A stretch of 25,980 nucleotides of DNA from a virus: positions 1 through 25,980 of the IMG/VR virus record IMGVR_UViG_3300009076_000040, one strand, 5' to 3'. Below, one piece after another: positions 7,575 to 23,444 of this stretch. Position 1 is the first letter of the stretch, and each line of letters begins with the position of its first letter. Below the pieces are notes generated by a model. It did not search any database, had not been told where the DNA came from, and worked only from the letters and a program-made list of their open reading frames with translations. The position numbers and the translations under genes are program-made.

Positions 7575-9184
7575 CTATGATTCTGACTTTGCCTCCACCG
7601 CAATCTCACAATCACAATTGTGATGGAGCGGTGGCGGGGCCGTCCATCCATCGGGATAGGTGGTGCCGTTGAGCGGGGAACACACGGGGCAATCTCCGGA
7701 GGTCCAGACTAGATCGTGGGTTTGGAGGTCGGTAGTGCTTAGGAGATCGGCGAAGTCTTCGCGGGCCTGAGCTTGGCGATCGAGCAAGCTTGCAGTTGAT
7801 TCGGAAGCCGAATCAATACAGCAAGCTGAGTTGTGAGGAGTTAGTTTTGACTGGTGAGTGGCTGACTCTGACAAAGCGGACGCCTGGGGGCAGGCGTCCC
7901 TACCATGCGGATCGAAGAGATCCTCCGAGGGTCCAGGGGCTGGGACTTTGTGGCGGTCGTAGAGCCATTGCTTGGACACTGGCAGGCCCATTTCTTTGAA
8001 GAGGAGTTTATCGCGTTCGGCGATTTGGCGGTCTTTTTCGGGGCGGTTGAGTTCGACTTCTAGGAATGGAAGCTCCTCGGAGTTGCCCCAGTTGAGTTCA
8101 ATGATGCTGGGATGAGTTGGTTGTTGATCACATCGATCACATAGGCGGCGTAGTTCTCGTAGAGGTCGAGTTCAACTTCGCGGTGGACGTTGCCGAGGGC
8201 GTAGCTGCCGGAGTTTCCCTCCTCGCTGGTTAGGGTCTGGCCGAGGAAGAGCAAGTCGCAGGCGCGGTCGGCAAGATACATCAATCGTTCGGTGGGTTCG
8301 GACTTTCCGGCCACGCCGGGGGTGTTGCCATTGAGGATCTGCAAGTCGGTGCCTTGGGGGAATGCGCCCCATGCGGCGGTGCCCATGTTGCGGAGCATGT
8401 CGGAGATCTGGTCGATCTGCGTTTGCGGAGCGCTGGGGTCGTAGGTGGCCCAGCGTAAGGGAATGCCAAAGAGTTCAGCCTTCTGCGCCATCCACTCCCA
8501 TCCGAGCATGCGGCCGAGCCAGAGGTGAGCGAGAGAGCGGAGCTGGGCGGTCTCCGCGATGTGACCGGACTTGGCGCGGTAAACGCCGACAAGGAATTTG
8601 TGGGGGTATTTTTCAAACTGCCTTGGATTGTTCGGGTCCCTATCTGGGAACAAGCGCAAGGCGTTTGAGTTTGAATATGGGAAAGTGGAAAGGTGGGAAG
8701 GTGTTTCAAAACCGAGACAAGTCCATGGAACACGGCGTGTTCCAGCTGGGACGTATTTGCCGTCTTCGAGGGTCCAATCGATTTCGAGGACGGAGACGCC
8801 TCGGGCGACGGCGTCGAGGAGTTCGTAAATGGTGGCGTGGAAGTTATGCTGCCCTTCCCAAGTGGCCGCTTTCTGGTTGTGGAGAACGTGCTCCACGAAG
8901 GACGCTTTTTCCAATGCGGACGGCGAAGGCTCTTTTCCTTTCTCTGTCCATGGCTGGAGGTTGAACGGTAGTTTACAGACGGCTTTCTTGAGCTTGTTGA
9001 GGTTGCCCCGGAGGCGCTCCCAAGTGTCCTCCATCGTGTTGAACAACTCGTTCTGGAGCATGAGGTTGCCCCGGCCTCCTTCGTCGAGGATCCAGCCGAG
9101 GGTTTCCGGATCGAAGTCGACGGGAATGGGGGAAAGTTGGAGATCTTTAACGTGAGGCCGTATGACCATGCGAGTCGGTTGCAT
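7575..9184 (-). pseudogene. DUF935-type portal protein fused to gpF-like C terminus, one-base frameshift
   Basis: The portal forms the DNA entry channel of the head. The main frame starts MQPTRMVIRPHVKDLQLSP and carries DFDPETLGWILDEGGRG, VSVLEIDWTLEDG, PHKFLVGVYRAKSGHIAETA and LFLGQTLTSEEGNSGSYALG, all DUF935/Mu gp29 hallmarks, then stops at 8060. The correct continuation is in another frame: IELNWGNSEELPFLEVELNR up to MGLPVSKQWLYDRHKVPAPG. Adding one C to the CCC run at about 8107-8109 restores LIPSIIELNW. The C terminus (SGDCPVCSPLNG...HHNCDCEI) is the Cys/His motif of gpF/SPP1 gp7 head-morphogenesis proteins, joined through a palindrome-rich linker. ATG 9184 is preferred over GTG 9199 because the fragment at 15946 starts at the same point. 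Confidence 0.82.
7787..7899. repeat. Two REP-like hairpins inside the portal reading frame
   Basis: Hairpin one nests AGCTTGC (7787-7793)/GCAAGCT (7821-7827) around TTGATTCGG (7796-7804), AAG, CCGAATCAA (7808-7816). Hairpin two is GGACGCCTG (7878-7886), GGGG, CAGGCGTCC (7891-7899). Both lie in the linker between the portal domain and its Cys/His C terminus. They are translated in frame as low-complexity sequence (GRDACPQASALSE). Confidence 0.65.
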
Positions 9185-9226
9185 ACGCAGTAGTCTCACG
9201 CAAAGGCGCGGTGGCGCAGAGTGCTT

Positions 9227-9245
9227 AGTTTAACTGGGTTTCACT
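9227..9245. repeat. 19-bp repeat AGTTTAACTGGGTTTCACT, copy 1
   Basis: The 19-mer lies between the portal start and the LRR cargo gene and is identical to 16211-16229, which sits at the equivalent place before the broken second portal copy. It marks the cargo/portal junction in both modules. Confidence 0.7.
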
Positions 9246-11920: not shown

Positions 11921-13264
11921 TTAACTCCAAGCCCTCGAAAACCGCGTCCGCATTGGGCGGTGCCTCCTCCTATTCTCCCCTACTCTGGCCGGAGCTTGCT
12001 CGGAAATACCCAATCCCTCGGGGCATTTCTCTGCTGCGTGCATCGCTAGTGCTAAAGCAGTCGCTCTGTCTGCGTGACCGTCCTTGGTTCGTGCGGCGAT
12101 GAATTTGACTAAGCCCTGCGGGGTGACGATGCGCTGGATACTGGCGAGATCGTCGCGGAGTTTGGCATCATTGGGGATGCGGACTTTCTGTGACTGAAAG
12201 GCTTTCTTGGCGCGGCTGAATAGCTCGCGCTTGCGCTCGTTGGTGAAGTTGACGGCTTCTAGCTTGTAATCGCCTAGCCTGCGGGCGAGGTGTTCGGAGA
12301 TGGGGCCGCCCATACCGGTTGAGTCGATTGCGATGTATCGGGCGCGGGCGACGCGTTCGGCGAGGATGGCTTCTTGCTCGGGGAATGGGGTGTTTTCGAG
12401 GACGAGGATTTCGCGGGTCCAGAGGATGCCGTTGACGCGTTCGAGCGTCCAAGCGACGGTGAGGTCTTTGCGACGGCCGATGTCGATGCCAACGAATAGC
12501 GGGTTGGGTGTTCTTGTTTCCCATGGGCCGAAGGATGCAGCGGGGTCTTCGACGGTGCGGATCAGATCCATCGGGAAGACTTGGGCGGCGTGTTCCATGA
12601 ACTGACACTCGAACTCTTGGGCCCAGCCGTCGGGATCGGCGAGGTTGCTCTTGAGCTCCTCGATGTCGAGGCCAAGGCCTTGGTCAACGGCGTCGTAAAC
12701 GCTGGTCTTGTGTCGTTTGAAATCGGATGCTTCGTTCCACAACTCGTAGAACTTGTTGTTCATCCCTGCCGGTGTGGAGATGACACGCAGCTTCAACTGT
12801 CCTCGCAGTGGGTTGGTGATGATGGGATAGACGGCTCTCCATATCTCCTCGGGGTTTTCATGGAAGGCGAACTCGTCGAGCACTAGGTTGGCCGAGTAAC
12901 CGCGGGCGGTCGAAGCATTGGCTGGGAGTGCTAGGATGCGGGCACCATTAGGAAAGCGAATCTGTGAAGCTTTGGTTTCGGGGCGGTAAGGTTTGCCGGT
13001 CTTTTGTTCGATACCGTCGCAGAATATTTGCCCTACCCGATGGACTTTTTCCATGAACTCGAGGGCTTGGCGCTCACCGGCAGAGAGAATGATCCAGTCG
13101 GAGCCGGTAGCGATGGCGTCGGCGACGACTTCGAAGGCGGCGGCAAGGGAGCCGCCGATTTGGCGGGACTTGAGCCAGATCTTGAAGCGCGAGCTATCCA
13201 ATACCCAGTCACGTTGATACGGGAGTAACAAATCGAATGGGGATGGTGGCTGACTCTGACGCAT
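11921..13264 (-). CDS. Phage terminase large subunit (Mu gp28/Terminase_6 type)
   Basis: The DNA-packaging motor, 447 aa. The ATPase half shows a Walker A-like KSRQIGGS (32-39), Walker B NLVLDEF (126-132) and coupling motif STPAG (163-167). The RNase H-like nuclease half shows FVGIDIG with D261, IAIDSTGMGG with D314 and KDGHAD with D395/D399. The length is slightly shorter than Mu gp28 but all motifs are present and the frame is unbroken, unlike the portal and capsid. It starts right at a poly-A/ATTAGCG repeat with no recognisable Shine-Dalgarno sequence. The small terminase lies upstream and the LRR cargo gene downstream. A diverged copy of its last 78 codons is at 17980-18217. Confidence 0.93.
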   Translation of the reverse strand: MRQSQPPSPFDLLLPYQRDWVLDSSRFKIWLKSRQIGGSLAAAFEVVADAIATGSDWIILSAGERQALEFMEKVHRVGQIFCDGIEQKTGKPYRPETKASQIRFPNGARILALPANASTARGYSANLVLDEFAFHENPEEIWRAVYPIITNPLRGQLKLRVISTPAGMNNKFYELWNEASDFKRHKTSVYDAVDQGLGLDIEELKSNLADPDGWAQEFECQFMEHAAQVFPMDLIRTVEDPAASFGPWETRTPNPLFVGIDIGRRKDLTVAWTLERVNGILWTREILVLENTPFPEQEAILAERVARARYIAIDSTGMGGPISEHLARRLGDYKLEAVNFTNERKRELFSRAKKAFQSQKVRIPNDAKLRDDLASIQRIVTPQGLVKFIAARTKDGHADRATALALAMHAAEKCPEGLGISEQAPARVGENRRRHRPMRTRFSRAWS

Positions 13265-13954: not shown

Positions 13955-14141
13955 CTTGCGGGGCGATGAACGGTGGAAGGTTGGTTTGATTGGAAAAGTG
14001 CCTTCGGCCGGATGGGAACCTTCCACCTCGGGCCGACATGCCGTGTGTGCCTCCTTTCCGGCGGCGGTCACGTAGCGGACTACGCTCGCTTGCCGGGCAG
14101 TCGTTAAGCACGACACCTCGACTCCGTCAGCACCCCGCAAG
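13955..14141. ncRNA. Structured repeat element, copy 1 (candidate ncRNA or folding-dependent repeat)
   Basis: This 187-bp element is closed by CTTGCGGGG (13955-13963)/CCCCGCAAG (14133-14141). Inside are an 11-bp helix GGTGGAAGGTT (13972-13982)/AACCTTCCACC (14017-14027), a hairpin CGTAG-CGGA-CTACG (14071-14084) and GTCGT/ACGAC (14100-14114). The second copy (15949-16142) keeps the architecture. The conserved words are ATGCCGnGTGTGCCTCCTT, exactly 10 nt after the 11-bp helix, and GTCGTTAAGC. The two long helices have different sequences but stay paired. On the minus strand it contains GGAGG ten bases before an ATG in both copies. The function and the transcribed strand are unknown. Confidence 0.55.
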
Positions 14142-15822
14142 GGAGCGCGGGGGCTAGGCCCGCTTATGGGTGGCTCGTGGAGCGAGCCATAGGCTCTTAA
14201 TAAATCGGCGCTGGGCGCGCCGCTCTGCTAGGGCACTCTAGTGCCCGCGATGAGCTACGCGGAGCGAGCGAAAGCGCGGGGCACCGCGCCGCCGGGAGGC
14301 GGGGGGAAGGCCCCCCTTCTACTCAAATGGGGGGCCGCCTGGAGAATCGGAGACGGCGCAGGCGCGAAGCGACGGAAGCGGGCTGCGGTGCTTCACCGCC
14401 ACGGGCATGGTTCGATTCCACGGGCATCCCGGGAGGGGGCCGGGGGACACACTGTAGCCCCCGAGCGCAAGGAGCCTAAGCGACTGGAGTGAGATGAGCG
14501 TGAGCGAATGCAGGGGCGTTTGCGGTGGACTGGTGCCCGAGGCGATCCCGGGGGCTGGAGCGTCACAATCTCTCTTATGTCCAATGAGCGTGAGCGTCTG
14601 CTAGGAATACGACGCAGTGTTGGACATAAGGCGAGATTGTGCGCATAAGCCGTGGGCCCCGGGTCGCCTCGGGCTTTGGGGTGTTGACGAGGATCCGAAC
14701 AGGATCCGAAGCTGGCTTTGCGTAGCGACCGCAGCTCTGTGGGAGCGGAGGACGGGCTGTGTAGCGCGTCGGGGGCGCGAGTGAAAGTGAGGGTGGAAGT
14801 TAAAGTGGGCTGAGAATGTTAGAACGGCTTGGATATGAGCGCGTAGCAGAACGGAGGGAGCGAGCTCTGTGCGAAGGGAGCGGAGCGTGGTGGGTTGGTG
14901 AGCGTGTGCCGGCGCTGGATTGAAAGGATGTGTAGCGCGGGGCGGTCGCAGTGAGCGAGGCACGAGAGAGCGGAGGCCGGCTGGCGCGGGTGGCGTTCGT
15001 TGCGGGAGCCGTGCGCCCCGAAGTGAGGAACGAACGCAGCAGGCGCTCGGCGGTTGGTTGGCGCTCTGGCGAGTTGGATTGTCAACCGAATGTAGCCCTC
15101 GGTGGCGATCGGTCGGAGTGGAGACGAAGTGCAGCGATGGGCACGGAGTCCAGGCGGGAGCGAAGGCGGCATCCATCGGAGGAAGCGAAACAGCCGGAAC
15201 GCGATCAGCGGAGGCGGTGGAGCCACTGGCGCGGTATGGGCTTTGCCGATAGCGTGACAGGGGCTCGTCCGCCGGAGCCGCGTGGAGGGTGTTGAGCGCC
15301 GATGGTGGCCGCCGCAGCGGGAGCCGGGACGGAGGGCGCTCGCGGAACGGCGACGGAGCGGAGAACGGGCGACAGCGTGGGCGGATGGCGTTCGTTGCGG
15401 TAGCGATCGGAACGGTGCTGCCGTCGGGAGCTTTGGCGACTAGAGGCAGGTGCGTGGAGGGAGCGGGGCTGCGATGGCCGGGCGGGTCGATTGGAAGCTG
15501 TGGGAGTGCTCGGTGAGGACCGACGAAGGAGACCGCAAGCGTGCACGGCAGGAGACCGAGCGGCCACGCCCTACCCCTTAACTGACTGAGTTGTCCTAAT
15601 CCGTGGCAATGTCGGAGAGCCCTGCTCAGCTCGTAGACATTGTGAGCAGGTGCACGGCACGGGCAGCTGTTCAAACGGATTGGAAACAACTGGCTAGCTT
15701 ACTCGAAAAAGTCCGACCTGGGGGGCATGGGGGAAGTTTGCTTCCCAGCACTGAGGGGGACCCATCGTCGACACACTCATTTTTGATTTTGAAAACGAGT
15801 GGCAGGGAGAGGCAGCTAGGTG
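14142..15822. other. G-rich, gene-free tract with many palindromes
   Basis: I see no credible gene in about 1.7 kb. The plus strand is strongly G over C, with recurring GAGCG/GGAGCG words. Open frames here are Arg/Pro/Ser-rich and composition-driven. Perfect hairpins include TGGCTCG/CGAGCCA (14171-14189), GGGCAC-TCTA-GTGCCC (14231-14246), GGCCCCCC/GGGGGGCC (14309-14336), GCGGTG-CTT-CACCGC (14385-14399), CGGGGG/CCCCCG (14441-14463), GCGTTCGTT/AACGAACGC (14993-15037), CTGCTCA/TGAGCAG (15622-15649) and GGGAAG-TTTG-CTTCCC (15731-15746). A GC-GAAA-GC tetraloop lies near 14268 and a tandem AGGATCCGAA repeat at 14690-14710. It may be a large structured RNA or decayed DNA. Confidence 0.5.
14536..14673. 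repeat. 138-nt nested hairpin
   Basis: Four stacked helices share one axis. CCCGAGGCGATCCCGGGG (14536-14553) pairs with CCCCGGGTCGCCTCGGG (14657-14673) with one bulged base. CACAATCTC (14564-14572) pairs with GAGATTGTG (14633-14641). TTATGTCCAA (14575-14584) pairs with TTGGACATAA (14620-14629). GCGTC (14594-14598) pairs with GACGC (14611-14615) around a 12-nt loop. About 41 base pairs in total; no reading frame explains it. Confidence 0.75.
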
Positions 15823-15946
15823 CATGAGATCCCCGGCCTCCTTCGTCGAGGATCCAGCCGAGGGTCTCGGGATCGAAGTCGATCGGGATCGGCGACAGTT
15901 GGTTGTCGCGGGGGTGTGGGTGGATGATGGTGCGTTGGACTCCCAT
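15823..15946 (-). pseudogene. Portal gene fragment (5' end only), second module
   Basis: Reads MGVQRTIIHPHPRDNQLSP and then DFDPETLGWILDEGGRG, matching the first ~40 codons of the portal at 9184 with clear divergence. Similarity ends near 15823, close to a CATGAG word that both copies share, with a 2-base gap just before the break. It is a remnant of a related but not identical head module. The structured repeat element begins three bases upstream of its ATG. Confidence 0.85.
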
Positions 15947-15948
15947 AG

Positions 15949-16142
15949 TGGAAACGGCCTCAGCGGATAGAGGCGAAAAGATTGAAGGATTCGTATCTTG
16001 GCTATCGCCAGCGAAGGACGCCTCTATCCTCGGAGCTCCATGCCGAGTGTGCCTCCTTCCGGCCTGCAGTCACGTATGCCAATACGCTCCCTTGGCTATC
16101 AGTCGTTAAGCTCGACAGCATCACCCCGTGAGACCGTTTCCA
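15949..16142. ncRNA. Structured repeat element, copy 2 (candidate ncRNA or folding-dependent repeat)
   Basis: This 194-bp element is closed by TGGAAACGGCCTC (15949-15961)/GAGACCGTTTCCA (16130-16142), 12 of 13 paired. The inner helix GGATAGAGGCG (15965-15975)/CGCCTCTATCC (16019-16029) is perfect over 11 bp yet shares no sequence with the matching helix of copy 1. Ten bases later ATGCCGAGTGTGCCTCCTT begins, as in copy 1. The hairpin CGTAT-GCCA-ATACG (16073-16086) has its closing pair changed from G-C to T-A relative to copy 1. GTCG/CGAC (16102-16116) is kept. Confidence 0.55.
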
Positions 16143-16173
16143 AAAGAAAAGCCACGCGGATTAGACGTGGCTT
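16141..16173 (-). terminator. Intrinsic terminator, minus strand
   Basis: On the minus strand AAGCCACG, a 9-nt loop and CGTGGCTT (16173-16149 on plus coordinates) form a perfect 8-bp stem followed by TTCTTTTGG. It would stop transcripts arriving from the secreted-protein gene at 16678-17931 before they reach the structured element and the portal fragment. Confidence 0.6.
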
Positions 16174-16210
16174 GATTTGTAGCGCAGAGAAGCTGAGGCG
16201 CAAAGGAGGG

Positions 16211-16229
16211 AGTTTAACTGGGTTTCACT
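16211..16229. repeat. 19-bp repeat AGTTTAACTGGGTTTCACT, copy 2
   Basis: Identical to 9227-9245. It marks the cargo/portal junction of the second, broken module; a nearby GCGCAAAGG word is also shared. Between this repeat and the portal start the first module has 42 bp, while this one has 264 bp because of the structured element and the terminator. Confidence 0.7.
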
Positions 16230-17979: not shown

Positions 17980-18217
17980 CTATCTCCAAACCCCCGCAAA
18001 CCGTGTCCGCATAGGCCGGTGCCTCCTACGGTTCACGCCCGTCAATGCAGGCGACCGTTCACTAATCCCCTGCCCCTCCGGATGCTTCTCAGCAGCGTGC
18101 AGAGCCAGAGCCAAAGCCGTCGCTCGGTCGGCGTGGCCGTCGCGGGTGCGGGCGGCGATGAATTTGACTAAGCCCTGCGGGGTGACGATGCGCTGGATGC
18201 TGGCGAGGTCGTCGCGG
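17980..18217 (-). pseudogene. Large terminase gene fragment (3' end only), second module
   Basis: The fragment encodes the last ~78 residues of a large terminase: DDLASIQRIVTPQGLVKFIA, then RTRDGHADRATALALALHAA, ending RPMRTRFAGVWR and a TAG stop at 17980. It aligns without gaps to residues 370-447 of the intact terminase (12152-11921), with about 13 residue differences by eye (roughly 83% identity). Similarity ends abruptly at about 18217 (GTCGCGG). It is too diverged to be a recent duplication. Confidence 0.88.
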
Positions 18218-23375: not shown

Positions 23376-23398
23376 TTCGACTCCCGCCACCTCCACCA
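23376..23398 (+). repeat. attR core (right copy of 23-bp direct repeat)
   Basis: Exact copy of 214-236, the T-loop-to-CCA end of tmRNA, with no tRNA-like sequence before it. This is the original chromosomal tmRNA 3' end pushed 23 kb away by the insertion. Chromosomal sequence resumes at 23399. Confidence 0.92.
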
Positions 23399-23444
23399 TT
23401 TTAAGTCTATGAATTACAACAACTCAATTTTCTCGGCTTAATAT

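Follow-up and report, generated by a model that had tools for sequence, protein, structure and literature searches.

Two copies of a structured element are present in IMG/VR virus record IMGVR_UViG_3300009076_000040, the whole of which (25,980 nt, hereafter the window) was analysed. Both are members of an interspersed, non-coding and non-autonomous element family of Verrucomicrobiota, which is real and is uncatalogued in the resources searched. With a probability of roughly 0.55, we read it as a structured element that is not autonomous but mobilised in trans, that takes its place at gene ends and whose fold is maintained once it is there.

The original prediction, made from the letters of the window, had placed the two copies at 13955-14141 and 15949-16142, and they are found at exactly those coordinates. 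The blocks that it described as common to both form a 105-nt direct repeat with 74% identity (14026-14130 and 16028-16132), and GTGTGCCTCCTTNCCGGC, allowing up to three mismatches, occurs in the window only at the two copies, against a chance expectation of 0.12. Across the family, the element is about 190-225 nt long. Its three parts are the closing helix (P1), a core arm made of P2-P4, whose internal loops are conserved and which bears a tip hairpin, and a long hairpin (P5); the core measures about 104 nt. The parts located in the window are as follows.

13955..14141, minus strand: element copy 1 (187 nt), which lies some 115 nt upstream of the probable start of the small-terminase gene
14133..14141, minus strand: copy 1, P1 5' arm CTTGCGGGG, pairing with 13955-13963
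13955..13963, minus strand: copy 1, P1 3' arm CCCCGCAAG
14109..14116, minus strand: copy 1, P2 5' strand GTGTCGTG, followed by the conserved loop CTTAACGACTG
14070..14085, minus strand: copy 1, tip hairpin GCGTAG-TCCG-CTACGT, where conservation across the family is highest
14038..14045, minus strand: copy 1, P2 3' strand CACGGCAT
13972..14027, minus strand: copy 1, long hairpin P5 with the 11-bp stem GGTGGAAGGTT/AACCTTCCACC
15949..16142, minus strand: element copy 2, 194 nt, directly upstream of a duplicated portal-gene fragment
16129..16142, minus strand: copy 2, P1 5' arm TGGAAACGGTCTCA, pairing with 15949-15962 and including one G.U
15949..15962, minus strand: copy 2, P1 3' arm TGAGGCCGTTTCCA
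16072..16087, minus strand: copy 2, tip hairpin GCGTAT-TGGC-ATACGT
15965..16029, minus strand: copy 2, long hairpin P5 with the 11-bp stem GGATAGAGGCG/CGCCTCTATCC

Several details of the prediction can be read directly from the letters: the closing stem and the 11-bp stem (helices P1 and P5) are paired in both copies despite their unrelated sequences, the gap to ATGCCG is 10 nt in both, and the closing pair of the tip hairpin changes from G-C to T-A between them. The GGAGG noted ten bases before an ATG on the minus strand is also present in both window copies, but it is not a start signal: the frame in copy 2 reads MELRG followed by a stop, GGAGG is not kept in other lineages, and the ATG lies inside helix P2.

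A gapped-pattern search yielded two further copies in an Opitutales metagenome-assembled genome (MAG). The closing and long stems are paired in all four copies, those of the window and of the MAG, despite unrelated sequences (for L007, CTGTGCGTCTG/CAGACGCACAG). These four copies served to build a covariance model, R1, of the 104-nt core only, a restriction that leaves P1 and P5 outside the model and therefore independently testable. The cores of copies 1 and 2 score 111 and 104.6 bits against R1, both being among its seeds. R1 matches were obtained in 18 of the 177 genomes of the order to which the MAG belongs, with 41 copies in G033, a single 4.8-Mb contig, and 34 in G031. A second model, R2, built from 100 matches and applied at E ≤ 0.001 per genome, matched 21 of 388 Verrucomicrobiota genomes, against a chance expectation of about 0.4. 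The wide searches scored a limited number of candidates per genome and their copy numbers are lower bounds, so that the richest genomes contain at least 20-41 copies. A search of this kind in Verrucomicrobiota had been proposed together with the original prediction; it recovered further copies, dozens of them in some genomes, and the long stems pair in these homologues.

The family could not be assigned to any known one, as had already been remarked for the window. Rfam covariance models run against the window gave no family match, just a weak snoRNA-like (small nucleolar RNA) chance match at E ≤ 10, and on 19 family loci only tRNAs scored above the gathering score. Phage and plasmid collections contained no copies, and in IMG/VR none was found beyond a near-identical copy of the same contig; this second contig, from another sample and 99.99% identical over 13.9 kb, has the same two copies. 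A literature search of partial coverage found no description of the element family.

The claim that this is a structured element changing by compensation is borne out by very strong covariation across the further copies. In 97 distinct cores, 90.3% of the cells are standard pairs, compared with 67.5% after shuffling and 22-46% when the partners are slid by 1-3 columns, and none of 500 shuffles reached the observed pairing fraction. Double-sided, compensatory changes occur in 26 of the 28 core pairs. The 97 rows were aligned to the model, hence the alignment leans towards the structure; an artefact is unlikely because of the size of the effect and because P1 and P5 were tested outside the model, P1 pairing in 18 of 30 copies exceeding the 99th percentile obtained with shuffled partners. 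The tip hairpin is nearly invariant; the internal loop that flanks it is a 2x2 GA/GA, replaced in many copies by GC/AA. In alignment A3 (columns 52-57 and 135-140), the switch of this loop between GA/GA and GC/AA is correlated with one of the first two tip pairs between GC/GU and GU/UC, a non-canonical form of covariation. The lineages of L021, L039 and L024 lack P5 and have a long and perfect outer stem.

The functional fold lies on one strand, the minus strand of the window; for family copies, "forward" denotes this same strand. The single-strand folding z-scores are -4.1 (copy 1) and -2.7 (copy 2) on the minus strand, versus -0.2 and -1.3 on the plus strand. In the core, 78% of the sequences have G.U at one position and 67% have U.G at another, pairs that would become A.C on the opposite strand. 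In P1 and P5 of 81 copies, a strand-symmetric count gave 73 G.T against 30 A.C (p = 2.7e-5). Because the z-scores and the wobble asymmetry both favour the minus strand, it is taken as the folding strand, and they rule out the plus-strand fold in which the element was originally drawn; neither this folding strand nor the seating at gene ends described next formed part of the original prediction.

In the nearest lineage, the element 3' end is located at the stop codon of a convergent gene, and P1 is partly built from the end of that gene. Among the window's nearest relatives, this end falls within -15 to +8 nt of the convergent stop codon in 30 of 40 copies; the opposite end is comparably near a gene in only 3 of 41. 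P1 extends into the stop codon or the coding sequence in 22 of 30 copies. The convergent host genes are ordinary, guaB, lpxA, priA and mlaA among them; from reading their sequences, we take the neighbours in G033 and its relatives to be IMP dehydrogenase, LpxA, PriA, MlaA, MnhB and sulfatases. Several copies in G407 are found directly 3' of transfer RNA (tRNA) genes, also in convergent orientation, and L181 and L183 appear, by eye, to adjoin 5S ribosomal RNA. In G031, the element 3' end is likewise at gene boundaries, at stop or start codons, and often abuts a start codon. About 32 of the 34 copies of this genome are contained within 66 kb (contig 11, 56-123 kb; L096-L099), the only two others found being elsewhere in its 4.3 Mb. 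Nearly all copies of the cluster are on the same strand regardless of gene direction, and some are tandem doubles with one common closing stem.

Other accounts of this seating were rejected. The G031 copies do not delimit integron cassettes, as the genes between them are nrfA-, argH-, esterase- and GT87-like and lie on both strands. Insertion into pre-existing terminators is contradicted by the lack of an A run upstream of P1 in the copies and of any such palindrome in element-free relatives. Lagging-strand insertion in G033 finds no clear bias (about 24 copies lagging versus 16 leading, with the replication limits set from GC skew, origin near 4.5 Mb and terminus near 2.15 Mb). Upstream of P1, other dispersed hairpin repeats were seen at L215-L218 of G305, as a tandem unit of about 75 bp with GCCGTCAGGCGG, and at L209-L214 of G407, as GGCGCGGCTTCGCCGCGCC blocks.

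Close relatives differ by gains and losses of copies. G033 and G001, with about 91-99% protein identity over the query set, have in common the copies after guaB and lpxA, and six of 20 further G001 copies match one of 30 fetched G033 loci, a lower bound on sharing because both locus sets are incomplete. The gap between mnhB and mnhC holds an element in G033 and G049, with different P1 arms that are nonetheless paired; it measures 3-10 nt in four relatives, G100, G090, G065 and G008 (3 nt between mnhB and mnhC), and 17 nt in G001, perhaps as the scar of element loss. In G257 and G407, near-identical copies are found at different places, several of them 3' of tRNAs. The suggestion of a mobile element, one of the options raised by the original prediction, is thus supported on two counts: close relatives differ in which sites are occupied, and copies of near-identical sequence occur at separate sites.

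Within a locus, the stems are retained. The comparison of orthologous copies covers six loci, one of which (L061/L226) may represent two independent insertions; strand-symmetric stem calls were used, since alignment by local folding alone overcounts broken pairs. Identity is 90% in the P1 arms and 86% in the P5 arms, compared with 67% in the P5 loop, 77% in the core and 75% in the 5' flank, and the contrast between stems and loops is highly significant (Fisher p = 5e-11). Of the stem pairs that changed, 13 were kept by double and 6 by single changes, and 5 were broken. P1 is therefore the best conserved part within a locus, while in G033 the P1 arms of different loci have little or no sequence in common, unlike P5 and the core. 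This combination indicates that P1 was locus-specific from early on, being either made from the target at insertion or tuned long ago to the neighbouring gene end. In G031 and G257, P1 is instead common to many copies.

In the mechanism that we propose, a trans-acting protein would recognise the folded single strand, more probably RNA than DNA, through the tip hairpin and would copy the element to gene 3' ends. Resident copies may then be kept folded because the structure acts at the gene end, for example by blocking converging transcription or by shielding 3' ends, and both window copies would be host-family elements inserted into a prophage. Several observations weigh against this interpretation. 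No mobilising protein was found, so that transposition itself is something we infer. Purely selfish DNA would not be expected to keep its stems conserved once resident, and the pairing of P1 conservation within loci with randomness between them requires an extra step, either target templating or long selection. Simple dispersal does not explain the crowding of the G031 cluster in near-single orientation, and the 3' end in that genome is often at a start codon rather than a stop codon. Strand-biased C deamination could also contribute to the G.T excess, though it would not account for the G.U pairs that are fixed in the core. A more specific version is doubtful: a new class of mobile element, either a structured RNA or a folded single strand of DNA, would recognise the 3' ends of genes and on each insertion copy its closing helix from the host sequence at the stop codon, with the help of the proposed protein partner. 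If true, such target-templated insertion would be a chemistry unlike the transposition mechanisms considered here.

The main rival is an RNA that serves the host at gene 3' ends, inherited with the chromosome, transcribed, and regulating or insulating its convergent neighbour, with spread limited to occasional duplication. We regard it as a possible but clearly less probable account. It would explain the exact seating at stop codons, the wobble bias on one strand, the far stronger conservation of stems than of loops in orthologues and the retention of the sites after guaB and lpxA in G033 and G001. It fits poorly with neighbours that have no common function and whose counterparts in other relatives lack the element, with the two copies in a prophage, with the recent near-identical copies in G257 and G407, and with the fact that most fetched G001 copies are not at fetched G033 sites (both sets being incomplete). 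The two readings are compatible, as a mobile element can be kept for its effect at a gene end. An unlikely third account places the function in the DNA, as a palindrome (protein-binding, cruciform or attC-like recombination site) whose arms are kept complementary by template-switch correction. Template switching is able to alter both arms together, and P1 arms that pair almost perfectly at every locus yet are unrelated in sequence, as well as the same-orientation cluster of G031, would be in line with it; the fixed G.U pairs, the one-strand excess of G.T over A.C and the conserved asymmetric internal loops would not, and most copies lack attC boxes and ordinary genes separate the G031 copies.

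Very improbable is the proposal that the element is the RNA part of a known RNA-dependent mobile system whose protein has been lost, such as a retron msr-msd, the HEARO/omega RNA of IscB or TnpB, or the IS110 bridge RNA. The closing stem, conserved arm and long hairpin do resemble a retron RNA, and dispersed copies without protein resemble HEARO, but neither HEARO nor any other Rfam family was matched and the candidate proteins do not accompany the element. No reverse transcriptase (PF00078/RVT_1) was detected in G033, G001, G049, G031 or G029, and its absence from the single-contig carrier G033 rejects dependence on this enzyme. The TnpB zinc-ribbon domain was not found in 24 genomes, its positive control being matched. 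IS110 (PF01548) is missing from many carriers, including G001, G031, G407, G191 and G331, and abundant (30 matches) in G182, which has no element match; neither TnpB nor IS110 tracks with the family. Y1 transposase (PF01797) shows no correlation with it either, being absent from G049, G031, G013, G257, G407, G305 and others and present in genomes without element matches, which rejects dependence on Y1 or the REP-associated tyrosine transposase (RAYT). The search for IscB (RRXRR) gave no match, but its positive control also failed to match. Beside the copies there is no recurring neighbour protein, just sulfatases, probably because these are abundant, and frames inside the element. Finally, the packaging or regulatory RNA that was another option of the original prediction, if taken as peculiar to this virus, is refuted as a general account of the family: copy 1 is indeed just upstream of the terminase genes and copy 2 upstream of a portal fragment, but nearly all copies are chromosomal, beside housekeeping genes, and, as described above, phage and plasmid collections yielded none and IMG/VR only the near-identical copy of this contig.

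Interspersed structured elements that are phylum-wide, covary this strongly and are absent from Rfam are rare. The nearly invariant tip hairpin offers a concrete bait for the protein predicted to bind it, and the sites of presence and absence among close relatives make mobility and function testable. Seating at stop codons together with a locus-specific, conserved closing helix is directly relevant to the question of how a bacterial repeat that is not autonomous settles at safe sites and why it persists.

Regarding the virus record itself, its left border contains the end of a transfer-messenger RNA (tmRNA) gene with an adjoining tyrosine-recombinase-like integrase, and the tmRNA 3' end is repeated at 23376-23407 (regions 1-236, 214-245, 294-1562 and 23376-23407), features that indicate a prophage integrated in the tmRNA gene. 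Portal (9069-9140 and 15831-15902) and large-terminase (11922-12158 and 17981-18217) fragments are duplicated within the record, a pattern that would fit a decayed second prophage, related to the intact one and adjacent to it. Between the two elements, at 14160-15560, about 1.4 kb contain no convincing gene, with a purine-rich plus strand and many degenerate short repeats. Two further features flank copy 2.

16142..16172, minus strand: intrinsic-terminator-like hairpin AGCCACG...CGTGGCT with a T-run, read from the letters, abutting the 5' end of copy 2
15831..15902, minus strand: duplicated portal N-terminal fragment adjoining copy 2, whose counterpart at 9069-9140 has no element

The terminator-like hairpin is probably a neighbour of copy 2 and not a part of the element. 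The distance from the portal fragment to a common upstream repeat (9199-9245 and 16183-16229) is 280 bp beside copy 2, compared with 58 bp at the counterpart.

Among known systems, integron attC sites are similar in their variable yet paired stems, their small conserved boxes, their position right after a stop codon and, in G031, their same-orientation arrays. Unlike attC, the element has a three-way junction and chromosomal housekeeping neighbours on both strands, and GTTRRRY is kept in part of the family only: the boxes RYYYAAC ... GTTRRRY are not found at the outer ends, which vary by locus, only some copies contain GTTAAGC in their core, and L013 has CATCAAG at the position expected for GTTRRRY. 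The retron msr-msd also combines a closing stem of variable sequence (like a1/a2), a conserved inner arm and a long variable hairpin, but element carriers such as G033 have no reverse transcriptase. The HEARO/omega RNAs of IscB are structured, of similar length and dispersed, with many copies lacking a protein gene; the element differs in matching no Rfam family at E ≤ 10. The IS110 bridge RNA is set apart by the many carriers without the transposase. Miniature inverted-repeat transposable elements (MITEs) are likewise short and non-autonomous, with recent near-identical copies, but the element has no constant terminal inverted repeats, and in the Opitutales group (G033) no two loci have the same P1; no target-site duplication was obvious, by eye, in aligned G257 copies. 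Repetitive extragenic palindromes (REPs) are 20-40 bp long and are tagged at one end by GTAG or CGTC (PMC3733652), unlike the 190-225 nt of the element, its multi-helix junction, its conserved internal loops and its ends without a constant tag, and the carriers G049, G031, G257 and G407 have no Y1_Tnp match, in contrast to REP/RAYT systems. By analogy, the element would nevertheless work most like REPs and bacterial interspersed mosaic elements (BIMEs), or like dispersed repeats of the short interspersed element (SINE) type: as REP/BIME sequences with RAYT, it is dispersed, non-coding, hairpin-forming, extragenic and non-autonomous, and present in many copies per genome.
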